64,000 nucleotides of DNA. Source: an uncultured Pseudomonadota bacterium (GTDB taxonomy: Bacteria; Myxococcota_A; UBA796; GCA-2862545). The notes under the pieces were generated by a model, which saw only the letters and a program-made list of their open reading frames with translations, searched no databases and had not been told where the DNA came from. Where the stretch lies: the NCBI GenBank assembly GCA_913061235.1, contig CAJXTB010000002.1, forward strand, positions 124,001-188,000, given 5' to 3'. Made by a program: the position numbers and the translations under genes. This document shows, one piece after another, positions 14,060 to 20,783 of the stretch (the first letter of the stretch is position 1; each line of letters begins with the position of its first letter).

Positions 14060-15568
14060 CTACACAGGTGCAGCGGTCTGTGGAGTCGGGGGGATGACCG
14101 CTTGTGGCACGAAGGACTCGCGCATGCCGATGGCGCGGGAGTCCACAGCGGTGGTCGGGTCGGACGGTATGACTAGACGAAAGTGAGCCCCCCGCGTCGA
14201 CGGCTCAAGTGTCAGGCGGCCACCGATCTCGCTTGCCGCAAGGGCGCTCGCATGTAGACCGAAGCCGTGACCATCATCCTTGGTCGTGAATCCATGGGTG
14301 AAGATGCGTTCCTGCAGTGCTTGCGGAACCCCATGGCCGGTGTCACGAACGTCAAAGCGGACATCGGTGCCTACCTGACGACATCGGATGGTGATGGTTC
14401 GCTCACCGTGGGCATTGCGCAGGGCATCTCGGGCGTTGCCGATGAGGTTGGTGAGAATCTGAATCACCCGGTGTCGGTCTGTCGATAGACGCAATCCTGT
14501 GGCGAGGTCTTCGTCCAACACAATCTCATGACGTTTTAGGCTTGCTTCGAGTAGCAGCCGAGACTGAGCGAGCAGGTCGGCGGCCTGTACGACCTCAACG
14601 ATGGCTCCGGTCGTGGCCAAACGTTGCTGTGCTTGGACGATGGCGGCGACATGCTCCGCTGACTGACGGATTCGGGCGAGCTCGTCGCGCAGATGGGTTC
14701 GTCTGCCGGCGATGGATTCGTCGAGTCGGTACAGGTATTGGGCAACTTTGTGCTGCTTTTCTGCGCTGACCTCTCCCTCAAGAAGGGCTGCCACACGGTC
14801 CAGACTGAAGTCGGACCGGTCCACTGCAGTGATAGCTAGGGCCACAGACGTGTTGACGCCGTTGAGAGCATTGCCCACGTTGTGCAGGACACCGGTGGCT
14901 ACCTCGCCCATACCTGCTCGTCTGGCGATATGCAGCATCTCTCCAATGGTTGTGTCGAGGGTGGCGCGGGTTTCTTCATGGCCGTACACCTCGGCTTGCA
15001 GCGCCTTGTTGGCACGTTCAACAACGCCCATCGAGTGGTGATGGCGCCGTCTGGTGTTCCAGGCTGAAAACATCAAGACTGCAGCTAGGCCACCGTGACT
15101 CATGGCTAGCACAACTGGTGAAGCCTCGTTTCTGGACGGGAATCGTCCGACAAGGTGCATTATGAGAAGGCTTCCGATGGCGCTAGCGGACACAACCATC
15201 ATGGGTCGAACGCTCTTTCGCCCGCCAAGTGCAATGGCCATGAAGGGGGGCATCGCTGCCCACAGCATTTCCGGAGACGACAGGCCGTTGGTCATCGTCG
15301 CCCGGCTCGCGACTGCGGCCACAAGAATTGTGCACCCGAAACTAGCCGCTACACACGGCCTTACCCGTCCCGCTGACAAGGCTGCCAACAGGCAGGCCGC
15401 GCCCAGGGTCAGCGGCAGTACTGGATGGGCCCCGACCTGGCCGAAAACTCCCGCTCTTGCGCCCCAAATCGCTAGAGATATGCCGAATACCGTGAACAAT
15501 AGGCGCAGCAAGGATTCGTGTGTTTTGTCAACATCACCGCGCGCGACCGATGGGCGAAACTTCAGCAT
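14060..15568 (-). CDS. Membrane-bound sensor histidine kinase (orphan)
   Basis: About 502 residues: five or six hydrophobic segments in the first 170 residues, a short coiled region, then the dimerisation helix with phospho-acceptor His near 229 in GVLHNVGNALNGV, and a HATPase domain with N-box NLIGNARDAL, G1 DTGHGV, F-box IFTHGFTTK and G2 GHGFGLHASAL. The HNVGN form of the H-box is typical of a subgroup common in myxobacteria and related organisms. The frame runs open to 15760, but that would include tRNA-Val and its terminator, so the ATG at 15568 is preferred. No response-regulator gene is adjacent and no periplasmic sensor domain is seen, so the signal is unknown. Confidence 0.88.
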   Translation of the reverse strand: MLKFRPSVARGDVDKTHESLLRLLFTVFGISLAIWGARAGVFGQVGAHPVLPLTLGAACLLAALSAGRVRPCVAASFGCTILVAAVASRATMTNGLSSPEMLWAAMPPFMAIALGGRKSVRPMMVVSASAIGSLLIMHLVGRFPSRNEASPVVLAMSHGGLAAVLMFSAWNTRRRHHHSMGVVERANKALQAEVYGHEETRATLDTTIGEMLHIARRAGMGEVATGVLHNVGNALNGVNTSVALAITAVDRSDFSLDRVAALLEGEVSAEKQHKVAQYLYRLDESIAGRRTHLRDELARIRQSAEHVAAIVQAQQRLATTGAIVEVVQAADLLAQSRLLLEASLKRHEIVLDEDLATGLRLSTDRHRVIQILTNLIGNARDALRNAHGERTITIRCRQVGTDVRFDVRDTGHGVPQALQERIFTHGFTTKDDGHGFGLHASALAASEIGGRLTLEPSTRGAHFRLVIPSDPTTAVDSRAIGMRESFVPQAVIPPTPQTAAPV

Positions 15569-15655
15569 TTGGGGTGCATCGGTCCGGTGGTGCTTGTGAG
15601 TAAGCACTGGGTAGGAATCATGTCCCTCGGGCGGGTGCCACCCCAAATCCCCAAC

Positions 15656-15689
15656 AAAAAAGACCGCCGAGACAAGCGTCTCGACGGTC
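15656..15689 (-). terminator. Rho-independent terminator of tRNA-Val
   Basis: On the minus strand a 12-base stem (GACCGTCGAGAC / GTCTCGGCGGTC, one G-U pair) with a GCTT loop is followed by six T's, 11 bases after the tRNA 3' end. It separates the tRNA transcript from the downstream histidine kinase gene. Confidence 0.92.
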
Positions 15690-15699
15690 ATTCGATGAG

Positions 15700-15774
15700 T
15701 GGTGGTCGATACTGGACTTGAACCAGTGACTTCCACCGTGTGAAGGTGGCACTCTCCCACTGAGTTAATCGACC
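15700..15774 (-). tRNA. tRNA-Val (anticodon CAC), CCA encoded
   Basis: The minus strand folds as a cloverleaf. The acceptor GGTCGAT pairs with ATCGACC, followed by discriminator A and an encoded CCA. The D arm contains AGTGGGAGAGT, the anticodon stem is CCACC/GGTGG with loop TTCACAC, and the T arm is ACTGG-TTCAAGT-CCAGT. The anticodon CAC reads the Val codon GUG. On the minus strand upstream, TTGCCA and GATAAG could be a weak promoter. It is a single-gene transcript ended by the adjacent terminator. Confidence 0.96.
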
Positions 15775-15796
15775 AAGGGCCGGCCGCTTATCGACT

Positions 15797-17452
15797 GTGG
15801 TGGCGTGTGGCAAGGCCTGTTGCGTCGGTTCGCGACAACTTGCGCATGAAGCGGGTACAGTAGGCGCCATCGTACGTGTATTGCCAACGTTCCTCCGTCG
15901 ACGAGGAGATCCTAAACCCGCCTTAGCATCAGAGCTCGACTGGTCAGCGAGTGTTCACGATGACAGTCAGGTTGAGCTGACGTTTGACTACACGGCGTCC
16001 GAACCGGGTGAAAAGGGCATTCTCGTAGACGATGCGCGGCCACGCTTCGATGTGGATGTGTACCTAGTAGCGCCAGCGGCGTTGGATCTAGACTCCGATA
16101 CCTACCCGAAAGAACGCTTTCTGGCGGACCTGACCCATCGCATGCGGCTGCATGCGCCTGAACTGCCCGGCTTCAGTGAAGGGCGGGTTGTGGCACTGGA
16201 CAGGTACCTCGAGTTGGATCTGGACTTCGCGGCCAAGTCGGCGCTGGCCCCCCGGGTGATCCAACAAACCAAGCTCTTCGCCAATCACTTTAACTTCCGC
16301 CTGAAACAAGTGTTTGTTGGTGATCAACCGCGCCCGGGACTCAAGTACAAGCGAGATCTTGCAGAGACCATTTCGCTGCTCGACAATTTCCGCGCCAGGT
16401 ACGCCGATCCCATGCGGGAGTCGTCGTTGTTGTTCGATGACGCGGTCCGTGAAGCGGTGCTCTGGGTAGAGGCCTACCTGTCTGACCGCGCTCGCTCGGC
16501 ACTCTCGCGAGTGGCCTTGGCCGGCAAGCGCAAGGCATTGCGCGCGCTGGTTCGCGAAGCGGAACACGAGGTCGTTGACTCGCCCTTGAACGACGGTGAA
16601 GATGACGAGGCCGTCGAACGCTACTTCCACCGCTATGGACAGCTGAAGAAGTACGTGGCTGAGGTGCTCTACCTCAATCGGCATGAGCTGCACCGCGACC
16701 GGCTGTACCGAAACCTGGCTGCCGCGACCGGTGCTGCCATTGCCGCCATGTTTGCCGAGACCGCTCGCTACTACAACAACACGGCGACAGGCACCACGGA
16801 CTTTGGCTTTCGCGTAGCCTTCTTCCTGGCGATCGCGGTGATGGCCTATGTGTTCAAAGATCGCCTGAAGGATCTATCAAAAGAGTACTTCGGACGTCGC
16901 GTAATGAGTGCTGTTCCTGACCGTGACTCAGAGCTGATGTTTAACTACGTGGATGAATCCGGTAGTAAGCAACAGGTGCTCGTCGCCCAGCATCATGAGT
17001 TCGTTCGGCACACTCAGAGCCATTCGCTCCCAGAGGATGTGGCGTACGTGCGACAGCGTTGCGAGGCCGCCGACCCGGGAATTGACCGGGATGTCTTGCG
17101 CTACAGCAAAGTCACTTGGTTGATGCCGCAGGCGCTCAACGTGCTCGAATACACCACGCTGTCGGTCAAGGATATTCTAAGGCTCGACCTGACCAAGTTC
17201 CTGTCGCATCTGGACAACCCGCTCAAGGAGCTGGCCCTGTACGACTCCGAGGAAGGGTCTGTCGTTGTTGAGGCGGCGAAGGTGTACCACTTGGACTTGG
17301 TCATCCGCATGGGGCGCAGTGTGCCAACATCCGAGGGCGTGAGCTCGCGCGTTCGTGTTGAAGTGGTGCGGGTCGTGTTGGACAAGAACGGCATTGTCCG
17401 ACTCGAAGAACCCATTAGTCGTGGTCGCTACCGCTATATGGACGTCCGATGA
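15797..17452 (+). CDS. Uncharacterised membrane protein with two central helices
   Basis: About 551 residues, family not recognised. The N-terminal half is soluble and acidic/basic mixed. A central pair of hydrophobic segments (LAAATGAAIAAMFAET near 310-325 and FRVAFFLAIAVMAYVF near 340-355) is followed by a large soluble C-terminal part ending in basic, beta-rich RGRYRYMDVR. Both large parts are probably cytoplasmic, with the two helices forming a hairpin. The start is uncertain: GTG at 15797 lies close to the divergent tRNA promoter, and a TTG at 15881 is an alternative. It overlaps the next gene by four bases (ATGA) and heads a coupled membrane operon. Confidence 0.72.
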   Translation: MVACGKACCVGSRQLAHEAGTVGAIVRVLPTFLRRRGDPKPALASELDWSASVHDDSQVELTFDYTASEPGEKGILVDDARPRFDVDVYLVAPAALDLDSDTYPKERFLADLTHRMRLHAPELPGFSEGRVVALDRYLELDLDFAAKSALAPRVIQQTKLFANHFNFRLKQVFVGDQPRPGLKYKRDLAETISLLDNFRARYADPMRESSLLFDDAVREAVLWVEAYLSDRARSALSRVALAGKRKALRALVREAEHEVVDSPLNDGEDDEAVERYFHRYGQLKKYVAEVLYLNRHELHRDRLYRNLAAATGAAIAAMFAETARYYNNTATGTTDFGFRVAFFLAIAVMAYVFKDRLKDLSKEYFGRRVMSAVPDRDSELMFNYVDESGSKQQVLVAQHHEFVRHTQSHSLPEDVAYVRQRCEAADPGIDRDVLRYSKVTWLMPQALNVLEYTTLSVKDILRLDLTKFLSHLDNPLKELALYDSEEGSVVVEAAKVYHLDLVIRMGRSVPTSEGVSSRVRVEVVRVVLDKNGIVRLEEPISRGRYRYMDVR

Positions 17453-19077
17453 TAATGGGCCTGTTGTTTGCGATTGCCGGCTTTGCCCTGGTCTTAGCAG
17501 GGCTGCGCGGCGTTGCAGCCACACTGACGGACACCCTCGTGACGCGGCTTCGCGAATCGGTCGTGCCGTGGTTTGAGCGGTCCGTTGCGGCCTACACGGT
17601 GGGCATCTGGGGCACCGTTGTTCTCCAAGCCAGTGCAGCGAGTGTGTTGGTGGTGATGGCCTTGGCCCACCGTGGCGTACTGAGCGTAGAGACGGCGGTT
17701 GTCTTGGTGCTTGGAGCATCGCTCGGCTCCGCGCTTAAGCTGTGGCTATTTATGCTTCCTACCACTGTTCTGGCGACACTACTGGTGGGGGCGGGCAGCC
17801 TGTGGCTGCTGTGGACGCGAGGACTCGCTCGTCGACGCCTTGCCCGTGGAGTGCTCTCGTTAGGCCTCATCTACCTCGGCTGGCACCTCTCTCTTCACGG
17901 CGTTGAGCCTCTGCTGGCAAATCCGGATGCCTTGGGCATCTTGGCCGGGCTGGACATCGGGACCTTGTTTGGGCTCGGTCTTGTGGTCACGATTGGCGTG
18001 GTTGCAGCCACCATGGTTCAGTCGAGTACCGCCGTTGTTCTCCTGTGTGTGGCACTTGTCGGACAGGGCATACTGCCGCTGGAGCTTGCGACTGCGATTG
18101 TGCTCGGGGCAAACGTGGGTACGACAGTGGCTCCGGTCATTGCAAGCGTCGAGTACAGCTCTGGCAGTCGGGTTGTGGCCTTCCTTCACATGTTGACCCA
18201 GGCTGTCGGCGTGTTTTTGGCTTCGCTGTTCTTCCACTCGTTCCTGGTGCTGACCGCGGGCCTGTCGGAGGTGCTCGGCGTTCAGGCGCCTGGTAGCCAG
18301 CTCATCATGGCGCACACCGTGTTCAACGTCATCAACAGCGCGATGTGGCTGCCGGTTGCTCCGCTGCTGGCTCGCCGCATCTTGGGACCGGCGGAAGAGC
18401 GTCGCGCCATGCCATTCTTGGCACGGTCCGTTCGGCGGATGTTGGCCAAGCTGCCAGAAGAGGCGGCCGCCGAAATCTCTCGCGAGCGGGACACCGCACT
18501 ACGGCAGACAAAAGTGTTCGTAGACAGGCTGACAGCGCAGCTGTTGGTCCACAGTGAGAACTCGTCCATCCGTGCACCCTATGACCTGCGTGCCCGCGTA
18601 CTCGGCGTTCAGGAACTCATTGCAGAGGTCGCTGTTCGTGGTCGTGTTGCACTGCCAGGACGGTTTCGCCAGTTCCTGTCCGAGCTCAACACGCTTGAAG
18701 ACTTGCTCGACGAGGCCATTTCTCTGACGCGTCGTCTAGAGCAGGAGTCGAGCCGTGTGCGTGTCCTTCGAGCGGTTCGACTGGAGGAGCCGCTCCGGCG
18801 GTACTCGCAAGGTCTCGAGCAGGCCTGGGCGGTCCGTATTCATGGCAAGGGAGACATTGCACCACGCGGCGCGTTCTCGGAGATTGAGCGCGAGATCTAT
18901 GAACGTATTCAAGCGTCCGGACGCGTGGACGAAGCCGACTGGATGGAGCTTGCCCACCAGGTCTCGCTGCTTCAGCGCATCTGGACCCGCGTGATGGACC
19001 TCGTGGCGCTGAACATGGCGGACCAAGTGCCGGCGGAGGCGCCACTGGTGGAAGCTCCGTTGGTGGAAGAAGCATGA
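17449..19077 (+). CDS. Na+/phosphate cotransporter family protein with PhoU-like tail
   Basis: A 542-residue protein of the NptA/PhoU-associated family. Two inverted repeats of membrane helices fill residues 1-330. The second repeat has intact signatures, VQSSTAVVLL (about 187-196) and GANVGTTVAP (about 223-232). The equivalent parts of the first repeat are altered (LQASAASVLV and GASLGSALK). The C-terminal 200 residues are a helical bundle like the PhoU domain. The family imports phosphate with sodium, but many bacterial members are uncharacterised and the altered first repeat makes the substrate uncertain. It overlaps both neighbours by ATGA, so it is translated as part of an operon. Confidence 0.88.
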   Translation: MIMGLLFAIAGFALVLAGLRGVAATLTDTLVTRLRESVVPWFERSVAAYTVGIWGTVVLQASAASVLVVMALAHRGVLSVETAVVLVLGASLGSALKLWLFMLPTTVLATLLVGAGSLWLLWTRGLARRRLARGVLSLGLIYLGWHLSLHGVEPLLANPDALGILAGLDIGTLFGLGLVVTIGVVAATMVQSSTAVVLLCVALVGQGILPLELATAIVLGANVGTTVAPVIASVEYSSGSRVVAFLHMLTQAVGVFLASLFFHSFLVLTAGLSEVLGVQAPGSQLIMAHTVFNVINSAMWLPVAPLLARRILGPAEERRAMPFLARSVRRMLAKLPEEAAAEISRERDTALRQTKVFVDRLTAQLLVHSENSSIRAPYDLRARVLGVQELIAEVAVRGRVALPGRFRQFLSELNTLEDLLDEAISLTRRLEQESSRVRVLRAVRLEEPLRRYSQGLEQAWAVRIHGKGDIAPRGAFSEIEREIYERIQASGRVDEADWMELAHQVSLLQRIWTRVMDLVALNMADQVPAEAPLVEAPLVEEA

Positions 19078-19490
19078 CCGAGCGTGCGTGGGTGTTGGTG
19101 AGCGCTCTGGTGTTGGTCCTCACGGCAACGTTGTGGTCCCTGTGGCTGTCCACGGGTGCGCTGGACCCGGTGCAGGTTGCTGAACGGGAGGGGGAGGCGC
19201 TGCTGTCGTTGTACAGGGTGTCTGAGTGGCAGGATGACGGCCGTGTTCGCTTGGACAAGGGCAGTCGAACAGCGATTGTTACGGGCGTGGACCCCAGCAT
19301 CTTGATTGGCGAAGACATCTCCGTGGCCGTTGTTCCGACTCCGGATGGGACGTGGACTGCGACCTGGGTGGAGCGGCATCCGGGGCGTCCTGCGAAGCGA
19401 TGGCTCGGGCTTGTTGGCATGGGGGCAGCGGCCGGCCTCTTGGTCTTTGGAACGCGGCTACGGGACAGGCGGATGTGGTTCCGTGGCTGA
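19074..19490 (+). CDS. Small membrane protein with two helices
   Basis: A 138-residue protein, not recognised. The N-terminal helix (VLVSALVLVLTATLWSLWL, about 7-25) is followed by an 80-residue soluble domain with beta character (TAIVTGVDPSILIGEDISVA) and a second helix (WLGLVGMGAAAGLLVFGT, about 110-127) with a basic end RLRDRRMWFRG. The positive-inside rule puts the C-terminus in the cytoplasm and the middle domain in the periplasm. It overlaps its upstream neighbour (ATGA) and the next gene by 8 bases. Confidence 0.72.
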   Translation: MTERAWVLVSALVLVLTATLWSLWLSTGALDPVQVAEREGEALLSLYRVSEWQDDGRVRLDKGSRTAIVTGVDPSILIGEDISVAVVPTPDGTWTATWVERHPGRPAKRWLGLVGMGAAAGLLVFGTRLRDRRMWFRG

Positions 19491-19995
19491 TCTGGTGACA
19501 CATCTGTGTACGGCGTTGTTGCCGGGTGTCTTGATCGCCGGCCCGCGTGCGACGTGGCTGGCCTTGGGCGTTGTGGCTCCGGATCTGGCAGCACGCGTTC
19601 CAGGGCTGGCACTCGACATCTTGCGGCGCCTTAGCGTACCGATTCCAATCAATATCGAGGCGCCCTTTGCGGTCATGCACATGCCGATTGGCGTGCTGTG
19701 TGGTGCGGTTCTGGTCTCGCAGATTGTGCACCCAGAGCAGCGTCGTCAGGCACTTGTCTGGCTGATTGCGGGAGGGGCGCTGCACTTGGCTGTGGACGCT
19801 CTGCAGGACCATCACGGTCATGGCTATTTTCTTCTGTTTCCATTCTCGACTCAGCGCTACGAGCTGGGCTGGATGGGCAGCGAGGCGACTGTGGCTTGGG
19901 CACCTTGGCTGGCACTCTTGACCGCTGTTGTGTGGGGCGTGCGCTGGGCTTGGCTGCGTCAGAGAGCGCGTTCTGGACGGGCGATTCGCAAGTAG
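19483..19995 (+). CDS. YdjM/DUF457-like membrane metal-dependent hydrolase
   Basis: About 170 residues with four or five hydrophobic segments and the family's polar signature inside the membrane: GGALHLAVDALQDHHGHG followed by LLFPFSTQRYELGW, which matches the HxxxD...G...L.PFS..R pattern of inner-membrane proteins annotated as metal-dependent hydrolases. The biochemical role of this family is not established. The GTG at 19483 is preceded by AGGCGGA and overlaps the preceding stop codon. It closes the four-gene coupled set that starts at 15797. Its 3' end overlaps the convergent gene by 37 bases. Confidence 0.75.
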   Translation: MADLVTHLCTALLPGVLIAGPRATWLALGVVAPDLAARVPGLALDILRRLSVPIPINIEAPFAVMHMPIGVLCGAVLVSQIVHPEQRRQALVWLIAGGALHLAVDALQDHHGHGYFLLFPFSTQRYELGWMGSEATVAWAPWLALLTAVVWGVRWAWLRQRARSGRAIRK

Positions 19996-20783
19996 GTGGC
20001 TGCGGGAACACTGATTCCGATGACCGCTACAACCCACGCGATGACAGCCCCTGGAGCCCCGAGGGAGGGCATGACGGTTGCGGCGACGAGGGCGTAGACG
20101 GAGACGGCGGACGACCCGAGGACGATTGGACCGATGGCCCCCAGAGGCACGGCTTCACCCTGGGAAATCCACAAGGACACCATGGTCGTCAAGAAGATGG
20201 CCGGAAACACGCTCGCCACCCCTGCGGCCACAGGTCCGATGATGTGTGCGAGCGCAATGGCCACGCCAATCGCGGTGGCTGCAAGTACGCCGCGCATCAG
20301 CAGAGTCAGCGGGCTGACGCGTCGGCTGCCCTTCGGGGCTGGGGGTAGGTCTTGGCACAGCACGATTCCGAAGACCATCAGGCCAACGGCGGCAACAGCC
20401 CCGAGGGCGCTTGCGGGTATGCCTCGGGCCATCAGGGCATCGGCGCCCAAGACAGTGGTCACAGCGGCGACTAGCCACGCCGAAACAGACAACAGCGCCA
20501 TCATTGCGAGGCGGCGACGTAGGCTTGTGGCGGGAAGTCGTGGCGGGATGACGCGCCACAACCATAAGAACGCGGCGTTGAGTGCCATGCCAACGGGAAC
20601 GACAGCCATCGCATCACGCAGGTCTGCGCCAGAGCCTGCCGCGGCCAGACCCAACGAGGCTGGAACAATCGTGGTTGGCAGTGCGCTGAGCACGCCACCT
20701 AGGCGTCCTCCGAAGCGTTCTACGGCAACGGTAGCGCCAATCGCGACCACTCCGGCGAGAGCAATGTGTACGGCTTCTTGCAC
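19959..20783 (-). CDS. Polytopic membrane protein of unknown function
   Basis: A 274-residue protein made almost entirely of hydrophobic helices (eight or nine). It opens with MQEAVHIALAGVVAIGATVA, then ERFGGRLGGVLSALPTTIVP, whose GG..G.LS.LP pattern recalls GlpM/DUF3147-like small membrane proteins, with a comparable motif in the second half (VAAGVASVFPAIFLTTM), as if duplicated. No transport or enzymatic motif is recognised. It lies three bases downstream of the small membrane protein gene at 20787, on the same strand. Confidence 0.75.
   Translation of the reverse strand: MQEAVHIALAGVVAIGATVAVERFGGRLGGVLSALPTTIVPASLGLAAAGSGADLRDAMAVVPVGMALNAAFLWLWRVIPPRLPATSLRRRLAMMALLSVSAWLVAAVTTVLGADALMARGIPASALGAVAAVGLMVFGIVLCQDLPPAPKGSRRVSPLTLLMRGVLAATAIGVAIALAHIIGPVAAGVASVFPAIFLTTMVSLWISQGEAVPLGAIGPIVLGSSAVSVYALVAATVMPSLGAPGAVIAWVVAVIGISVPAATYLRIARPERAL

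Follow-up and report, generated by a model that had tools for sequence, protein, structure and literature searches.

What is the function of an operon in which four genes for membrane proteins overlap one another? The question is raised by a locus in a 64,000-nucleotide stretch of contig CAJXTB010000002.1 from an uncultured bacterium; the whole of this stretch is called the window below. The four genes, P1 to P4, all lie on the forward strand and overlap by 4, 4 and 8 bp, just as an earlier reading of the letters alone (the sequence-only reading) had described before proposing that the products form one complex or serve a shared process at the inner membrane. We find instead that the operon is a local combination of two independent, individually conserved pairs, P1-P2 and P3-P4. 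Our preferred reading, to which we assign a probability of roughly 0.55, is that P1-P2 is a Na+-coupled phosphate carrier with a dedicated partner, P1, and that P3-P4 is a separate pair. The main interest lies in the first pair, in which a widespread but nameless membrane protein of subfamily P1A accompanies a Na/Pi carrier of clade P2A with a predicted PhoU-fold tail.

Gene-neighborhood surveys led us to reject a single four-gene system. Of the 58 genomes searched as relatives, the window genome alone has the full set. In the other families of the window's order, P1 relatives lie away from relatives of P2, P3 and P4 (0/14 loci adjoining); neither P3 nor P4 accompanies P1A-P2A in other phyla (L172-L183); and many relatives possess P3-P4 without P1-P2. 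Orthologues that were never adjacent had been named in advance as the outcome that would tell against a shared process, and this is what was found for the set of four, whereas each of the two pairs was repeatedly found together. That all four proteins nevertheless form one complex or pathway is highly improbable: the same-strand overlaps of 4, 4 and 8 bp favor such a union, but in relatives P3-P4 is tied by the same 4-bp overlap to genes of the SPFH family. As a caution of wider use, tight coupling of four genes need not mean one function. The part of the sequence-only reading that fared best is its suggestion of phosphate handling at the membrane, which is the likeliest theme for the P1-P2 pair, coupled as it is far beyond the window genome.

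The evidence for this coupling came from both partners. A scan of named genomes for the P1 family returned 543 stretches in many phyla, of which the best 80 were taken as loci, and Na/Pi neighbors in these loci were detected by a single-sequence P2 search. In 11 of the 12 best-scoring loci (L172-L183), a P2-type Na/Pi gene lies directly downstream of P1, with a 4-bp overlap in seven cases, a 1-bp overlap in three and a 1-bp gap in one (L172). P2A is present in each of the 12 P1A genomes examined, including the one in which the genes are unlinked. In the P1 tree, the 11 linked rows and the unlinked L175 form a 12-row clade, P1A (100/100), within which the window P1 groups with L182 (95/98); the remaining 51 rows are all unlinked. 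The P1 of L180 is split over two frames; this locus was counted as linked but kept out of the tree and the alignment. In the same tree, L170, from the window's phylum, joins L200, which is labeled Myxococcota, at zero branch length, so the phylum of the window's 7.18-Mb genome is probably Myxococcota. The 12 linked P2A proteins likewise group in a single clade (100/100), apart from 36 further Na/Pi rows that include the YjbB of E. coli; this separation may be exaggerated, since most of the rows used for comparison were drawn from the phylum of the window.

Searches from the transporter side, made with a P2A profile, separate P2A clearly from other Na/Pi genes by score. In the phylum of L173 (149 genomes, 11 with any match), P1A lies directly upstream of all seven P2A genes, the pair being cut by a contig end in G525 and P1A being frameshifted in G521. 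The latter case was considered as a P1A-P2A gene fusion, since one open frame runs over both genes (L290:1-2586); we rejected this in favor of a frameshift because the last ~45 residues of P1A lie in another frame. Linkage was found for six of six P2A genes in the phylum of L183 (386 genomes, 78 with any match; lowest P2A score, 409 bits; next Na/Pi gene, 241 bits) and for four of five in that of L172 (392 genomes, 186 with any match; 396 and 279 bits, respectively). Among 377 genomes from the window's phylum, of which 129 gave a match of some kind, the window genome alone has a full P2A (578 bits against 245 for the next gene); a P2A-like fragment at a contig start in G010, from the same family as the window, was left unjudged. 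Taken together, 21 of the 22 judged P2A genomes (L178, L179 and L182 included) carry P1A directly upstream, and the linked pairs are distributed over Planctomycetota, Vulcanimicrobiota, Sericytochromatia, Cloacimonadota, Oligoflexales and the window genome. All nine P2A genomes that were found through P2 alone are linked (G521, G523, G524, G525, G537, G543, G1004, G1022 and G1033). P1A was detected within the ~1.5-kb flanks of none of 78 other Na/Pi loci, and inspection by eye of the matches listed for other genomes of the window's phylum revealed none with adjoining P1 and P2 places.

The description of P2 as a Na/Pi-cotransporter homologue is well founded. P2 matches PF02690 in two stretches above the cutoff (E = 6e-28; 98 bits against a gathering score of 29.1) and NF037997 with 94.9 bits against a cutoff of 50; its 119.7 bits against TIGR00704 (Na/Pi cotransporter II-related) fall under the trusted cutoff of 210.1. 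The core matches SLC34A2 structures (E = 3e-17) and shares 27% identity over ~310 residues with E. coli YjbB (hhalign probability, 99.6%). QSSS is a repeated motif of the NaPi-II carriers, which have been modeled on the DASS protein VcINDY, according to the available part of PMC6325988. At the corresponding places, the window P2 has QASA (position 60) and QSST (position 191), and most P2A proteins have QASS/QSSS. In 4 of the 22 P2A proteins (L177, L307, L178 and L179), at least one of the two places is degenerate, so not every P2A need transport. In these four loci, P2A still lies directly after P1A.

The sequence-only reading had also given P2 a PhoU-like tail, a claim that the predicted fold supports and the sequence does not. 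Modeled alone from 13 sequences, the tail is predicted to adopt the six-helix PhoU fold in two three-helix groups (mean predicted local distance difference test [pLDDT] score, 84.5). It aligns with PhoU structures 4q25 and 1xwm with a Z score of 17.1 and a root mean square deviation of 2.8 over 192 residues. The top eight VIA-align matches are PhoU, PhoU-like or, for 1sum, unnamed (Z, 17.1 to 15.2; 195 to 179 residues); they are followed by plant ALMT channels at 14.9 or below, with more PhoU-like proteins among them, and then by matches at 8.4. The best Foldseek match is a PhoU-like protein (E = 0.029; probability, 1.00). At the sequence level, the PF01895 profile found 1 of 12 tails, with an E value of only 0.21, and hhalign gave 0.2% for a match to E. 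coli PhoU. The [ED]xxxD motif, which has a metal role in PhoU, occurs at no position common to the 13 tails. The tail is thus predicted to be of the PhoU fold with a sequence that is not recognizably PhoU.

The family of P1 is large and is unnamed in both Pfam and NCBIfam, neither of which yielded a match above the cutoff; the earlier description of P1 as unrecognized stands. Fifteen family members searched against Pfam gave nothing beyond two stray single-member matches; the P1 sequence alone matched no Protein Data Bank (PDB) sequence, and the family profile found only chance-level PDB matches, mostly coiled coils. As a lone query against genome contigs in a first scan, P1 found no match. 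Relatives with ~28% identity occur in 14 of the 57 genomes that were searched alongside the window's own as relatives (15 of 58 with the latter included) and in none of 20 same-family genomes, while the family profile has matches in 98 of the 377 genomes of the window's phylum. No literature on the family was found in searches that concerned phosphate transporters.

The AlphaFold2 model of P1, built with 63 sequences (pLDDT, 84.0; predicted template modeling score, 0.82), places strands at residues 47 to 118, a helical part at 132 to 291, a helical hairpin at 301 to 370 and further strands at 376 to 550; by inspection, the hairpin holds both hydrophobic segments. P93, A313, Y351, K354, D355, K358 and D375 are invariant in the 63-row alignment, and positions conserved in at least 90% of the rows include R117, R279, K284, R356, R419, R462 and R525. 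The large basic share among the conserved residues suggests contact with an anion or a head group. Comparisons with known folds were unproductive: Foldseek found no PDB match at an E value of 0.001 or below for the whole model and its domains together, and the best VIA-align match was a long-helix protein with a Z score of 8.2 over 74 residues, a level at which, according to the tool, a common arrangement is possible.

Outside P1A, the neighbors of P1-family genes differ by lineage. In five of eight Bacteroidota loci, the gene directly upstream of the P1 relative encodes a DASS (PF00939) symporter, and in six of the eight a CYTH gene lies upstream (L205, L214, L224, L233, L241, L246, L248 and L250; L224 has almost no upstream DNA). 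DASS was identified by family scan in L233 (PF00939, E = 9e-53) and CYTH in L214 (E = 5e-16), and the other copies were identified by similarity. P1 relatives come after DASS (Na_sulph_symp) and CYTH genes in L205, L214, L233, L241 and L248 (and L246), and in L246 the CYTH gene overlaps the P1 relative directly. A bond to Na+/anion carriers is therefore seen in two branches of the P1 family and not in most. In Myxococcaceae (L190, L199, L201 and other loci), P1 relatives are followed by a HAD-like gene, with a weak PF03767 match in L222, and by pyruvate-dehydrogenase-like genes; in Oligoflexales and kin (L184, L185, L197, L212, L223, L226 and L235), they come directly after a RuvB-like gene. 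The neighbors in other P1-family loci are unrelated housekeeping genes. In Sericytochromatia (L183:5055-12209), SixA-like, PPK1-like and Ppx-like genes, named by inspection of their sequences, stand consecutively with P1A and P2A on one strand; a general link of P1 to polyphosphate operons was rejected, as such a neighborhood occurs at only 1 of 94 loci.

Several of these observations weigh against a phosphate carrier with P1 as its partner. The other 68 of the best 80 named P1 loci have no adjacent Na/Pi gene, and 14 of 14 P1 loci of the window's order also lack one; with most of the family devoid of such a neighbor, the basic activity of P1 need not concern phosphate. In L175, the sole unlinked locus of the 12, P2A lies on another contig of the same genome. 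To these are added the rarity of polyphosphate genes at P1 loci, the sampling of the P2 tree, the degenerate substrate motifs and the absence of a PhoU signature from the tail sequences. Conceivably, P1 acts generally in the membrane, as a scaffold or as a factor associated with lipids, and the tie of P1A to a Na/Pi gene is only a historical one, due to co-transfer. The spread of the family over many phyla with lineage-specific neighbors (RuvB-like, HAD-like, CYTH) and a fold without a clear match would suit such a role, but we consider it unlikely, given that the pair, with its overlaps of 1 or 4 bp, persists in several phyla, that P2A is kept in each P1A genome tested, and that a separate second link, to a Na+/anion symporter, exists in Bacteroidota.

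Another explanation, which we hold to be quite unlikely, makes the pair a transceptor, with P2 wholly or partly devoid of transport and its PhoU-fold tail and P1 reporting phosphate to the cell. The persistence of P1A beside the four degenerate P2A genes fits this idea, as do the regulatory roles on PhoPR that the available part of PMC13170248 describes for the PhoU domain of NptA; set against them are the QASA and QSST retained by the window P2, the QASS/QSSS of most P2A proteins, and the fact that no sensor kinase was noticed adjoining the pair on inspection of the listed loci. We favor a Na+-coupled phosphate carrier with a dedicated partner, in which P1 is most likely an accessory or regulatory subunit. 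P2 would be an NptA/SLC34-type transporter that couples inorganic phosphate to Na+, and its PhoU-fold tail would be regulatory; the phosphate substrate, like the topology and the complex, we infer. P1 would be anchored in the membrane beside P2 through its two-helix hairpin and would hold in the cytoplasm a beta-plus-helical body rich in conserved Arg and Lys. This body may sense an anionic signal, such as phosphate, polyphosphate or a head group, and P1 might then adjust transport or relay the state of P2.

A broader proposal, possible but tentative, is that P1-family proteins are accessory subunits of a class hitherto unrecognized, and that they serve Na+-coupled carriers of anions with either of two related folds, NaPi and DASS. 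If so, P1A would serve a PhoU-tailed Na/Pi carrier; in Bacteroidota, another branch would do so for DASS carriers, next to an enzyme of the CYTH (triphosphate) type. The family would then be a bacterial equivalent, though with a different fold, of accessory domains through which phosphate carriers are linked to the phosphate or polyphosphate state of the cell, and the pair could be a pure sensor in lineages whose carrier has lost the substrate motifs. As the available part of PMC13170248 reports, PhoU-type accessory regulators fall into three clades, each with one phosphate-transporter family, the PhoU domain of NptA being included. P1A would add to these a class of phosphate-carrier regulators without a clear known fold, found across several phyla. 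The two-gene P1A-P2A system makes the control and direction of NptA/YjbB-like carriers testable.

P3-P4 has a history of its own. Besides the window genome, 43 of the 57 relatives searched have P4 (44 of 58 in all), and neighborhoods were taken for 40 of the 43. P3 is a two-helix protein by inspection. P3-like open reading frames (ORFs) form a cluster that covers 38 of 41 loci; L112 and L115 make up a separate small cluster. Of the 38 loci with a recognizable P4 start, 35 retain a stop codon where the 8-bp overlap lies; the other 3 of the 41 have no such start. P4 had been described as a DUF457-like hydrolase, DUF457 being presumably the former name of PF04307 (YdjM). The window P4 matches this family weakly (23.1 bits; gathering score, 29); the homologues in L112, L115, L137 and L138 score above the cutoff, that in L102 scores below it (27.1), and those in L106 and L130 have no YdjM match. 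D3, H7, D34, R38, H66, R87, H101, D105, Q108 and H110 are invariant in 41 sequences.

P3 is preceded in nine same-family loci (L103, L105, L106, L108, L110, L111, L112, L115 and L116) by a gene of an SPFH cluster, which in seven of the nine overlaps P3 by 4 bp, as P2 does here. Pfam finds Band_7 in both SPFH genes of L112. With an SPFH pair before P3 in relatives and P1-P2 before it here, P1-P2 occupies the place of the SPFH pair; a close copy of the SPFH lipoprotein is absent from the window genome, where the one match has 29% identity over 144 residues. Several of the nine loci have, before SPFH, a gene for a ~194-amino-acid uncharacterized protein, the L112 copy of which has no Pfam match. 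NfeD is encoded beside SPFH proteins. P3 was considered as NfeD-like and rejected: 16 members gave no NfeD match at an E value of 1, only scattered weak hits. We suggest that P3-P4 is a lineage pair, a small membrane protein with a YdjM-like putative metal-dependent hydrolase, that would be translationally coupled to whichever gene lies upstream, the SPFH pair in several relatives and P1-P2 here. Deoxynucleoside-kinase-like, panB and panC genes, named by inspection, follow P4 in several loci and in the window.

Coordinates of the operon and its flanking tRNA gene in the window
Feature	Coordinates	Strand	Description
tRNA-Val (cac)	15700..15774	-	Divergent, directly upstream of operon
P1 (subfamily P1A) ORF	15797..17452	+	551 aa; protein with two-transmembrane hairpin, N- and C-terminal beta parts and helical bundle (predicted)
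P1 stop/P2 start overlap, ATGA	17449..17452	+	4 bp
P2 (clade P2A) ORF	17449..19077	+	542 aa; Na/Pi core of ~315 residues and C-terminal tail of predicted PhoU fold
P2 tail, stretch predicted alone	18394..19074	+	Predicted PhoU fold, six helices in two three-helix groups
P2 stop/P3 start overlap, ATGA	19074..19077	+	4 bp
P3 ORF	19074..19490	+	138 aa; two-helix membrane protein with small domain between helices; upstream partner of P4
P3/P4 overlap, GTGGCTGA	19483..19490	+	8 bp; kept in 35/38 loci
P4 ORF	19483..19995	+	170 aa from GTG at 19483; YdjM (PF04307)-like membrane protein with invariant His/Asp

The listed start of P1, GTG at 15797, is uncertain, residues 1 to 44 of the model having pLDDT scores below 50, and the true start is probably later. 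The first 60 codons contain three in-frame start codons (GTG at 15797, GTG at 15800 and TTG at 15881), and no obvious ribosome site was seen by eye before the P1 start codons. A scan for sigma-70-type promoters over 15600-20100 found none. The G+C content is 0.586 for P1, 0.619 for P2 and 0.615 for the window; a foreign base composition of P1-P2 is not seen, and recent transfer is thus unsupported by this measure. Upstream, a histidine-kinase-like ORF listed at 14060-15760 on the reverse strand runs through tRNA-Val, so its listed start must be too early.

Known systems resemble parts of this operon. P4 shares with YdjM (PF04307) proteins a weak profile match, with ten invariant residues of its own, but the window copy scores under the gathering threshold and P4 has a fixed partner in P3. 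The DASS (SLC13) loci of Bacteroidota likewise join a Na+/anion symporter to a P1-family gene on the same strand; the transporter is of another family, the P1 branch lies outside P1A, the gene order is reversed and CYTH is upstream. YjbB, a putative exporter that has been employed as such for phosphate according to the available part of PMC11389368, has a core homologous to that of P2 but falls outside the P2A clade (12 P2A rows against 36 others, 100/100), and its gene in E. coli K-12 has metH and pepE as neighbors and no P1. NptA of Staphylococcus aureus, likened here by its description in the available part of PMC13170248, has a Na/Pi core followed by a PhoU-fold tail, as P2 would; it differs in that the tail of P2 cannot be recognized as PhoU by sequence and that P2 is coupled to a separate P1A gene. 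P1 itself differs from the accessory regulators PhoU and PitR in having its own transmembrane hairpin and a beta-plus-helical architecture, and its fold searches returned no clear PhoU match; like them, it would be the dedicated accessory of one transporter family.

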